Source: Hydrogenobacter sp. T-8
GTDB lineage: Bacteria > Aquificota > Aquificia > Aquificales > Aquificaceae
Direction of reading: 5' to 3'
Length of the DNA stretch: 64,000 nucleotides
Assembly: GCF_011006175.1 (NCBI RefSeq)
Contig: NZ_CP048795.1
Coordinates: forward strand, 124,001 to 188,000
The notes under the pieces are model-generated. The model saw only the letters and a list, made by a program, of their open reading frames with translations. It was not told the DNA's origin and searched no databases. The position numbers and the translations under genes are program-made. Below, piece by piece: positions 22,820 to 28,152 of this stretch. The stretch's first letter is position 1, and the number at the start of each line of letters is the position of its first letter.

Positions 22820-23593
22820 ATGCATCCCATATTGGAAAAGGTAAGGCTTTCAGAAGACGCATGTCTTTTAAAGGTTCATGCGGTCCATGTGTCTAAGGCG
22901 GAGCCAGGGCAGTTTGTAATGGTTCAGTATACAAAGCTATCGGAGTTAGTCCCTCTTGCCATACTTGAGACCTTTCAAGAAGGCTTTTCTTGTCTTGTAA
23001 AGGCGGTGGGTAGGTCCACCCTTGAGATATTGGAGGAGGCGGAGAGTTTTCAGTATGTGGCAGGACCTCTTGGCAAACCATTCCCAGTAGAAAAATACGG
23101 AAAGGTGTCCTTTTACGCCTACTCTTGGGGTATTGCACCTATTTTAAACGTGGCGAAGGCTCTAAAATCTGCAGGCAACAGACTTTTCCTTCAGGTAGTA
23201 TCTGAAGAGTTTTATCTAAGGGATAGGTGTGAAGCACTTTTTGACGAAGTAAGGCACTCCGAGGATATACTAAACTTTGAGGCAGACCTTGTAGTATCCG
23301 CAGGGAGCAATAGGCTTTCATACCAACTTACCCAGCTCTTTCCTCAAACACCCATCATAAGCATGGTTAACACCCATATGCTTGATGCGGTAGGTCTTTG
23401 TCTTGTATGTAGAGTTTTGGTGGATGGTAAATACGCCCTTGCCTGCAGCGATGGTCCTTGGTTTGATGCCCACAAGGTTGACTGGGAAAATCTTATGGCA
23501 AGGGAAGAGAGCTACAAGGAGCAGGAAAGGATAGCCTTTGAAGAATACCTAAAGACACTCAAGAGGAAAAGGGCAATTAATGTAAACTTATAA
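22820..23593 (+). CDS. NfnA/SudB-like FAD/NAD-binding iron-sulfur subunit, orphan
   Basis: A 257-residue protein of the 'sulfide/dihydroorotate dehydrogenase-like' FAD/NAD-binding group (PyrK, NfnA, HydG-type). It has an N-terminal flavin barrel (GQFVMVQY near residues 32-39), a central NAD-type domain (YAYSWGIAPILNVAKAL) and a C-terminal [2Fe-2S] loop, DAVGLCLVCRV...ACSDGPWFD. Its Asp and three Cys match the NfnA cluster ligands. The canonical RxYS flavin motif is not evident (VPLAIL at that place). The catalytic large subunit (NfnB/GltD-like) is absent nearby, so the partner is unknown. A possible role is to feed electrons to a GltD-like or hydrogenase partner. Confidence 0.8.
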   Translation: MHPILEKVRLSEDACLLKVHAVHVSKAEPGQFVMVQYTKLSELVPLAILETFQEGFSCLVKAVGRSTLEILEEAESFQYVAGPLGKPFPVEKYGKVSFYAYSWGIAPILNVAKALKSAGNRLFLQVVSEEFYLRDRCEALFDEVRHSEDILNFEADLVVSAGSNRLSYQLTQLFPQTPIISMVNTHMLDAVGLCLVCRVLVDGKYALACSDGPWFDAHKVDWENLMAREESYKEQERIAFEEYLKTLKRKRAINVNL

Positions 23594-23651
23594 AGGTAAA
23601 AGAACCACATACTTATTAACCTCACATTGTGTGGGGTGAAGGAGGGTAGAT

Positions 23652-26279
23652 ATGTTATACATAGTAAAAGCACACACTGCAATGCTTTGCTTGTTTATTC
23701 TATTAACAGCTCCAGTTTTTGCCCAAGAAGGACCAATCCCTCAAGGAGAAGGTAAAGGAGGTGTTAAGATTGGACCAGGCATTATAATACCTTTTATACT
23801 AATACCCACTATCCTCAAGAAACTGAAGGAGGGAAAGGAACAACCTCTTACGTATGAAGTACTTGATAAAAAGCCTATTAACATATCCCAAAGTGGGAAC
23901 AACTATATTATAGACTGGGTAGTTTACTATGCCAACAACACGAATTCCGTTCAGAATGGCATAACTATATCTGATGGTCCTATAAACAGCATAATCCCAG
24001 GCTCTTTGCAACAACCGGCAGGATGGACCGGCTCATTAAATCCAACAAACATTATAGCGACATGGACAGGAAATGCACCACCAATAAATGGGTATATGAC
24101 TGCAACTGTAAGCACACAAATGGCTTCTACCTTTAATGTGACAGGTGGTGGAGATGGCTATAGGGCTTTCCCTTATAGACATATGTCTTCTGGTGGTAAG
24201 CTAAGGATCTACTTTATAAATCATCACGAGCCTATGTTTTCGAACATAAACACAGGTCAAATTTTTAAGTGTGTTGATACCCTAACAGGAAATTACTGCA
24301 CTGGCTTTCCTAAAATTCTTCCAAAGGGTGATAACTCTGGGAAATTTTCCTCGTCTGGTATGTACAATGAAGAGTACTATATTGATAGTTCTGGAAAATT
24401 TTACTACGCTGTTACAGCTAATGATAAGGAATTTGGACTTGGGTGTTATAATCTTGAAACAGATACAGAATGCGGTTTTTACAGGCTTGGTGTAAATCCA
24501 ACGAAGACATGGTCTTATGTAAAGGGTCCATGGAAGGTAGGAAATGAATTATACATGGTAGGTGGGGACTACAAGCTGTATTGTTTAGATGCAATAAACC
24601 CGGCTAACTTCTGCTCTGGATTGAGCAGTTATCAAACGGGGTTTAGTTTTCCAGCCAGTTCTTTCCTAGACCCTAATGCGGTGGGTACAACAATCTCACC
24701 AAACATGAGTTTTGGTCCCGGCATTTTTGGAGAAGTTATCGGCAAAAAGCTTTACTTTATAACGGATAGCCATGCTAATGCCATACCTAAGACCATAAGA
24801 GCCTTTTGTTTTGATACATTGTCAAAAACTTCCTGTGCTGGTTGGACGGTTTCATCACAAGTTCACAATTCTCCAATGACTTATCCAAGAATCTGGGCAT
24901 CCTTTATTTACTATGACAATGCAATGAATCCTATACATCTGTGCACCAGACTAAATGGTACATACCAATATTGCTTTAGTTTGTCCAACGGTTTACCCTC
25001 TTCACCTCCTACTGTCTTTGGGGGCTTTTCCTTGGGCACAGGGTTTGGTGCGGAAGTTACTGTGGGTTCAAGGACATACTTTCCAGATTTTATGTATCAA
25101 GCGGGAAGTTTTAATTATGGTCGAGTCCTCTGTTGGGATTGGTCAACTGGCTCACCCTGCATGCCCAACTGGGAATACAAGAGTTGGACACACCCGTTTA
25201 AGGGAAATCCCAGAGACTATACTACAAACATAGACGACAGAGGATGTATATGGGTTGTCGGAGATAACTCTCCTGCCATTTGGTATTTTGACCCTAATAA
25301 GCCTTTAGATAAGAATGGTCACGCCAGTAAATGTGAAGAAAAAAACGCCATGCAAATTTTCGTATTCAAGCCCTGGCAATACTGTTCTGGACCAAAACCC
25401 TTTATATGGACAGGCGTGGAGATAGCTAACGCGTCTCTATCTGATTTTACAAAACTTTTAATAAAAGTAAAGGACAGTTCTAACAATATCATATTTACCT
25501 ATGACTGCGTAGTTAATAACAGTCTAAATGCCAACCTTGCCAGTATAGTATCACAAACAAACGGACAGCCCTTAAATGTGGAAGTGGAGTATACTCTGGC
25601 TAGCGGTAGCAATCTGAATAATTTTGAGCTGAGAGCCTATTACCATGCTTCGCCTCTTGAATTCTGCTATAAGAGCCAGCATAATTGCCTTCAGGACGTG
25701 GTCAAAAACATAGTTAATGTATCGGGAGTTGAGCAAGCTCCTAAGGTGGAAGTTGAACTTCCAAAGCCTCAGTCCTGCCCCGTGGTCGGTGAAGATGGTC
25801 AAGGAAGTGGTCAGCCAAGTGGACCGGGTAGTGGGAGTCAAGGAGGTTCTGGCGGTGGTATGGGCTCTGGATTGGGAGGTGCTCTTCTTAGCCCAGTGCC
25901 TTTGCCTGAAGGTGGTATCCTTGGTTCTGGTAGTGCCTTAGAGGGAGCTGGTGGGACAGCTCCACTGTCTGGTGTTGGTGGAAGCGGTGCACAAGTTGTA
26001 GAAAAAGATGGTAAGGTGCATATAATTCCAGAAACCAAGCAAAGGTGCTACTGGAGACCAAAAGCGACCGCTCCAGCCAAGCCTAAAGAGGAAACCATTA
26101 CCAAAAAGCCTGTAGTTTCCAAGAAGAAGCCAGTAAGAAAAGAACCCATAACCTCTGGCACAAAAACAGCCAAAGCTCATATGCCTGTCAAAAAACCTGT
26201 TAAAAAACCTTTAGTTCCGCCTAAAGCTCAACCTGCTAAGGGAGCGGACATGGAATACGTGTGTGAACCAGAAAAGTAG
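23652..26279 (+). CDS. large secreted protein with six cysteine-pair repeats, Gly-rich linker and Lys/Pro tail
   Basis: An 875-residue exported protein that I do not recognise. A signal peptide ends near residue 24 (PVFAQ). A DUF11-like strand-rich domain (about 65-155) is followed by a propeller-like region. There a unit of form C-x8/9-C, often CxDxxTxxxC, occurs six times (first Cys coded at 24270, 24444, 24582, 24807, 24942 and 25131). A second strand-rich domain spans about 575-690, a Gly/Ser/Pro-rich linker about 715-785, and a basic Lys/Pro tail with two more Cys runs to the end. The DNA is visibly more A/T-rich than the neighbours. AAGGAGGGTAG precedes the ATG. Probably cell-surface bound; function unknown. 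Confidence 0.85.
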   Translation: MLYIVKAHTAMLCLFILLTAPVFAQEGPIPQGEGKGGVKIGPGIIIPFILIPTILKKLKEGKEQPLTYEVLDKKPINISQSGNNYIIDWVVYYANNTNSVQNGITISDGPINSIIPGSLQQPAGWTGSLNPTNIIATWTGNAPPINGYMTATVSTQMASTFNVTGGGDGYRAFPYRHMSSGGKLRIYFINHHEPMFSNINTGQIFKCVDTLTGNYCTGFPKILPKGDNSGKFSSSGMYNEEYYIDSSGKFYYAVTANDKEFGLGCYNLETDTECGFYRLGVNPTKTWSYVKGPWKVGNELYMVGGDYKLYCLDAINPANFCSGLSSYQTGFSFPASSFLDPNAVGTTISPNMSFGPGIFGEVIGKKLYFITDSHANAIPKTIRAFCFDTLSKTSCAGWTVSSQVHNSPMTYPRIWASFIYYDNAMNPIHLCTRLNGTYQYCFSLSNGLPSSPPTVFGGFSLGTGFGAEVTVGSRTYFPDFMYQAGSFNYGRVLCWDWSTGSPCMPNWEYKSWTHPFKGNPRDYTTNIDDRGCIWVVGDNSPAIWYFDPNKPLDKNGHASKCEEKNAMQIFVFKPWQYCSGPKPFIWTGVEIANASLSDFTKLLIKVKDSSNNIIFTYDCVVNNSLNANLASIVSQTNGQPLNVEVEYTLASGSNLNNFELRAYYHASPLEFCYKSQHNCLQDVVKNIVNVSGVEQAPKVEVELPKPQSCPVVGEDGQGSGQPSGPGSGSQGGSGGGMGSGLGGALLSPVPLPEGGILGSGSALEGAGGTAPLSGVGGSGAQVVEKDGKVHIIPETKQRCYWRPKATAPAKPKEETITKKPVVSKKKPVRKEPITSGTKTAKAHMPVKKPVKKPLVPPKAQPAKGADMEYVCEPEK

Positions 26280-26348
26280 AAACTAAGATTGGGGGAGGGG
26301 GTTAGAGCTTACACACTGTGTTAAATTTGAGAATTATAATCTTGTATC

Positions 26349-28152
<1,804 letters not shown>

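Follow-up and report, generated by a model that had tools for sequence, protein, structure and literature searches.

Seven-bladed beta-propellers of the WD40 and LGI1-EPTP types (WDR91, Fbw7, LGI1) resemble the protein described here in its seven predicted blades, with Foldseek E values of 7e-7 to 3e-5. They have no sequence relation to it, and the present protein differs in being bacterial, in having a signal peptide-like start and in carrying one cysteine pair per blade; no WD40 profile of Pfam matched, and the resemblance to WD40 is in fold only. The PQQ or quinoprotein-like propellers, including tetrathionate hydrolase and BamB, are exported bacterial propellers that are found among the fold matches, and the "CxD..tG" turn of our protein presumably recalls the quinoprotein blade motif. 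The protein nevertheless has no Pfam PQQ match and is set apart from this group by its cysteine pair per blade and by its additional N-terminal, sandwich and tail regions. PilY1-type tip adhesins offer a working resemblance only, that of a propeller within a multi-domain, surface-type protein, but there is neither a family match to them nor a recognised pilus gene nearby. The N-terminal domain (residues 66-163) has what we take to be the general sequence look of DUF11-type repeat domains, which is a lead; Pfam gave nothing for it at E up to 10. Actinobacteria may have comparable propellers with paired cysteines that follow DUF11-like domains. Our literature search found no work directly on this protein.

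The gene occupies positions 23652..26279 on the plus strand of the window, by which we mean the whole 64,000-nucleotide stretch of Hydrogenobacter sp. T-8 that was analysed, taken from a genome that is a single contig of 1.81 Mb. It was called as an open reading frame with an ATG start and encodes 875 amino acids; six homologs were aligned. Our best explanation, to which we give an even chance, is that the product is an exported, surface-located, disulfide-stabilised propeller acting as a non-enzymatic binding scaffold or adhesin. We infer from the sequence that the protein is exported and that its cysteine pairs are joined as disulfides, and we suggest that it is located at the surface and has a binding role.

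Layout of the protein

All of the protein features lie on the plus strand. The signal peptide-like N-terminus (MLYIVKAHTAMLCLFILLTAPVFA-QEG, 23652..23723) consists of a hydrophobic core and then a cleavage-like site, at which the alignment places A, G or S before Q25 in 6/6 homologs, judged by sequence features. A second hydrophobic segment (GPGIIIPFILIPTIL-KKL, residues 38-58, 23763..23825), recognised by hydropathy, has a Kyte-Doolittle mean of at least 1.77 over 19 residues in all six homologs, contains the invariant Pro47 and Pro52 and is a possible anchor; if it were membrane-spanning, then with its Lys-Lys the chain could return to the cytoplasm. The presence of this segment in every homolog, together with BamB chains among the best fold matches, would suit a periplasmic structural or assembly factor (a scaffold like BamB, or a component of an envelope complex) held by the segment, in place of a surface binder. 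We consider such a factor unlikely, since patchy presence within one genus ill suits a core role and the protein has no sequence relation to BamB.

The N-terminal domain (23847..24140) contains no cysteine and has a mean pairwise identity of 76%; it was modelled at low confidence and is perhaps Ig-like. The repeat region (residues 165-566) follows, and behind it lies a C-terminal beta-sandwich-like domain (residues 570-705, 25359..25766) with predicted strands at pLDDT up to 85 and the cysteines C578, C619, C672 and C679. The remainder is the Gly-rich linker and basic Lys/Pro tail with two cysteines (C799, C871) that the earlier note had described, and both are present. The Gly/Ser-rich linker (25785..25991) is only 28% identical among homologs with its composition kept. 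The tail (25992..26276) comprises a KQRC799YWRPK motif at 75% identity, a Lys/Pro stretch at 28% and the C-terminus MEY(V/I)C871EPEK, the last ten residues being 88% identical; its composition is kept among homologs although its sequence is not. No other exact copy of the terminal motif was found in the genome. A stretch of about 0.3 kb that has stops in every frame (L019:9082-9432) splits the homolog of G006 within the Gly-rich linker, after which the tail open reading frame resumes in another frame; this interruption had no repeat among the fetched loci and no Rfam match.

A signal peptide-like start joined to a multi-domain, propeller-containing architecture of surface type is also what would be seen in a type IV pilus tip adhesin resembling PilY1, in which a propeller at the filament end senses or holds surfaces. 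We hold this to be quite improbable: the Pfam search gave no match, PilC/PilY1 included, no pilin or pilus gene was recognised beside the gene either here or in five relatives, and the propeller is central rather than C-terminal.

Predicted fold

Structure prediction was run from three sequences only, and for residues 25-714 it gave a model of low overall quality (pLDDT 46), with runs of strands visible and Foldseek matches that were propellers of many kinds. The repeat region modelled alone reached a pTM of 0.64 and a mean pLDDT of 57.9, with blades 2-4 mostly at pLDDT 65-91 and blades 6-7 low. Foldseek returned 353 matches for this model at E up to 0.001, the best of them WD40, LGI1-EPTP, BamB and other propellers, many seven-bladed, with TM-scores to the targets of about 0.2-0.5. 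With seven strand sets and matches that are overwhelmingly propellers, the repeat region is predicted, at moderate confidence, to be a seven-bladed beta-propeller, the model being a prediction that is weak in blades 6-7.

The blades were delimited by cysteines, model strands and invariance: blade 1 at 24144..24311 (C207/C216), blade 2 at 24345..24488 (C265/C274), blade 3 at 24510..24629 (C311/C321), blade 4 at 24711..24851 (C386/C395), blade 5 at 24891..24989 (C431/C441), blade 6 at 25041..25175 (C494/C503) and blade 7 at 25209..25349 (C532/C561, a C-x28-C spacing). The model strands have higher pLDDT in blades 2-4 and low pLDDT in blade 7. In the predicted model, blades 1-4 and 6 have their first cysteine within strand C and its partner at strand D, the blade 5 pair is on strands B and C, and C532 is at strand B with C561 after strand C in blade 7, where pLDDT is low. 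DSSP likewise puts the paired cysteines on adjacent strands in blades 1-6 of the prediction.

The earlier note had proposed a propeller with blades each pinned by a disulfide and had counted six units. The propeller and the placement of paired cysteines on neighbouring strands of one blade are supported by the predicted fold, and the cysteines are invariant; the count was wrong, as a seventh blade with C532/C561 had been missed, and the blade 5 pair is placed on strands B-C rather than C-D. Profiles built by leaving out one blade at a time gave weak scores for the omitted blade, and the propeller profile had no PDB match; the blades are too divergent for strong mutual detection, and because of these weak scores they are not provable by sequence alone.

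Tetrathionate hydrolase (6l8a, 7cqy) was among the Foldseek matches of both models, and the invariant residues H191-H192, D306, D479 and G537-D538-N539 map to the loops of a single predicted face or directly beside them. A secreted propeller enzyme in the sulfur or energy metabolism of a chemolithotroph, for example one that is tetrathionate hydrolase-like or quinoprotein-like, would fit these observations. We rate this as rather unlikely, however, because numerous unrelated propellers match at least as well as tetrathionate hydrolase, Pfam searched at E up to 10 gave neither PQQ nor any other enzyme family, the propeller profile has no PDB sequence match, the loops of the face in question are on average less conserved than the strands, and only 6/14 genomes of the genus have the gene. 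Conservation across the domains fits a scaffold that may have a variable side: the least conserved blades are 4-6 (53-61%), and the N-terminal domain, blades 1-3 and blade 7 stand at 70-77%.

Cysteine pattern and proposed arrangement

Six C-x8/9-C pairs are present exactly where they had been reported, with first cysteine codons at 24270, 24444, 24582, 24807, 24942 and 25131 and partners 9, 9, 10, 9, 10 and 9 residues on, respectively. When residues 26-600 were shuffled, no more than 4 such pairs arose in 20,000 trials. The reported form CxDxxTxxxC is exact in 2/6 pairs (C207, C494) and nearly so in three (CYNLETDTEC, CLDAINPANFC, CFDTLSKTSC), whereas the fifth pair, CTRLNGTYQYC, deviates and is placed by the model one strand before the position of the others. 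None of the 14 propeller cysteines varies among the six homologs, whose identity is 58-72%. In the homolog L009, which has 16, exactly two are added: the first in a loop inserted ahead of blade 6, the second in the B-C loop of that blade, with both loops assigned to a single propeller face. Elsewhere in the protein, all homologs keep C578, C672, C679 and C709, C619 alone is lost (to Phe in L005) with an even number of cysteines remaining, and C799 and C871 are present in 5/5 homologs with a complete tail.

Each blade most likely has its one conserved cysteine pair joined as a disulfide. Spaced cysteine pairs do occur in metal proteins, and binding of metal or heme could be considered in place of disulfides, with nothing specific in its favour; we judge this very improbable, as cysteines set 8-9 residues apart over a hairpin do not resemble CxxC sites, the protein contains no CxxCH and the pair in the L009 loops was gained jointly. 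From cysteine parity and conservation, the simplest pairing would place seven disulfides in the blades, two in the second domain and C-terminal region and one in the tail, leaving C619 free.

In the exported, disulfide-stabilised scaffold that we favour, a small and perhaps Ig-like domain would precede the seven-bladed core and the beta-sandwich-like domain would come after it. The protein would be exported, oxidised and sorted with Dsb help, the DsbC-like isomerase encoded by the neighbouring gene in relatives sorting its disulfides. Five blades would each have a hairpin between two outer strands closed by a disulfide; that of blade 5 would join strands B and C, and that of blade 7 would bridge a longer span. 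Two pairs would form among C578, C672, C679 and C709 in the C-terminal region and one, C799-C871, in the tail, giving about ten disulfides in all with C619 dispensable. The propeller would be a rigid disk fixed by disulfides, which would preserve the fold of an exposed protein in hot water. This disk would be tethered by the N-terminal part, the propeller's variable loops would be presented for binding, and the flexible Gly-rich and Lys/Pro tail would reach outward or contact an acidic polymer. A role in binding or adhesion is our best guess, in agreement with the variability of blades 4-6 and the gene's patchy occurrence. Belonging to no known family and probably exported, the protein would offer a natural example of how a propeller is stabilised in the heat, and its regular disulfide-per-blade design would be a new disulfide-rich version of a common fold within a narrow family, as well as a candidate component of the little-known Aquificaceae cell surface.

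Family and distribution

The relatives compared were metagenome bins of Aquificaceae and Aquificota. Homologs with 58-72% identity were found in 6/14 genomes of the genus (Aquificaceae), and a profile scan of 136 genomes detected none elsewhere in the phylum beyond this genus. The Pfam, NCBIfam and PHROG families gave no match, and Pfam at E up to 10 gave no family for any of the six homologs. PDB searches by sequence with the whole protein, the profile and separate domains returned only low-complexity or chance matches, tblastn against plasmids and phages found no real match, and viral contigs had none. An exact-pattern scan of genome contigs matched two congeners, and distant relatives in other phyla may still exist. 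Mutual exclusion between the propeller gene and Pel genes was considered and rejected, as both are present in G004, G006 and G008.

The dsbC-bioF neighbourhood

Five relatives share the gene order dsbC-like gene, propeller gene, bioF. The DsbC-like protein has DsbC_N and thioredoxin domains with a CPFC site, and this neighbour would suit a disulfide-rich exported product; considered as possible secreted Dsb substrates, all homologs have a signal-like N-terminus and five have a dsbC-like neighbour, and the neighbourhood points to a testable partner protein. A dsbC relative is found in 12/12 good genomes of the genus (the one in G005 is merely remote), and dsbC is also present in other genomes that do not have the propeller gene. 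Directly behind the dsbC-like gene, G003 (L091:4779-14117) and G007 (L093:9805-17899) have a Pel exopolysaccharide operon with a PelB barrel, GH114, PelG and a glycosyltransferase with DUF3492. Since dsbC occurs without the propeller gene and the Pel operon is found in the same slot, the slot after dsbC may be an insertion hotspot, and the adjacency could reflect the use of a common insertion slot and not a link in function. A wider reading would have genus-restricted surface propellers, with one disulfide per blade, encoded beside their own DsbC-like isomerase in a slot exchanged with the Pel operon, closely related hot-spring bacteria thereby swapping their surface or biofilm layer via one cassette; this we find doubtful.

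Insertion in Hydrogenobacter sp. T-8

In the window genome the usual slot is closed, dsbC and bioF being adjacent with 3 bases between their open reading frames; G013, which has no propeller gene, likewise has dsbC adjacent to bioF. The propeller gene here lies between a gene with a DHODB-type iron-sulfur domain upstream and a small coiled-coil gene downstream, which is followed by a gene read as kdsB. The flanks are joined without the propeller gene in 4/4 relatives examined (G013, G003, G010, G006), which means that a segment of about 2.75 kb (23594..26339, approximate boundaries) is inserted in the window genome, and the gene is a derived insertion at this site. TTATAA occurs at both segment edges (23588-23593 and 26334-26339) and once in G010; it may be a target-site duplication, for which so short and A/T-rich a sequence is weak evidence. 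Separate scans of the two edges and their visual comparison revealed no inverted repeats joining them, and the upstream flank does not recur as a repeat within the genus.

The A/T-richer DNA to which the earlier note drew attention is evident in the third-position GC of the gene, 0.355, the lowest of 48 window genes (median 0.46, z -2.2). The homologs in most relatives are also below their neighbour genes in GC3, so that composition alone does not demonstrate transfer and the low value is partly a family trait. Over its folded part the protein is 77% identical to the homolog of G010, as bioF and kdsB are to theirs; because this divergence from the nearest homolog equals that of ordinary genes, a move inside the lineage and acquisition from a congener are indistinguishable. 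Of the suggestion of transfer, mobility is supported by the empty sites in relatives, and a demonstrated change of position takes the place of transfer itself. The clear empty and filled sites make this a good case for tracking gene movement within a genus.

The upstream gene differs from its relatives in its final residues, which adjoin the insertion (23564-23593) and read KRKRAINVNL here and RRRRTLAT in G003. The small coiled-coil protein between the upstream gene and kdsB (26349-26666) has a C-terminal membrane segment; its gene is kept in some relatives and missing in G007 and G002, where kdsB directly follows the upstream gene.
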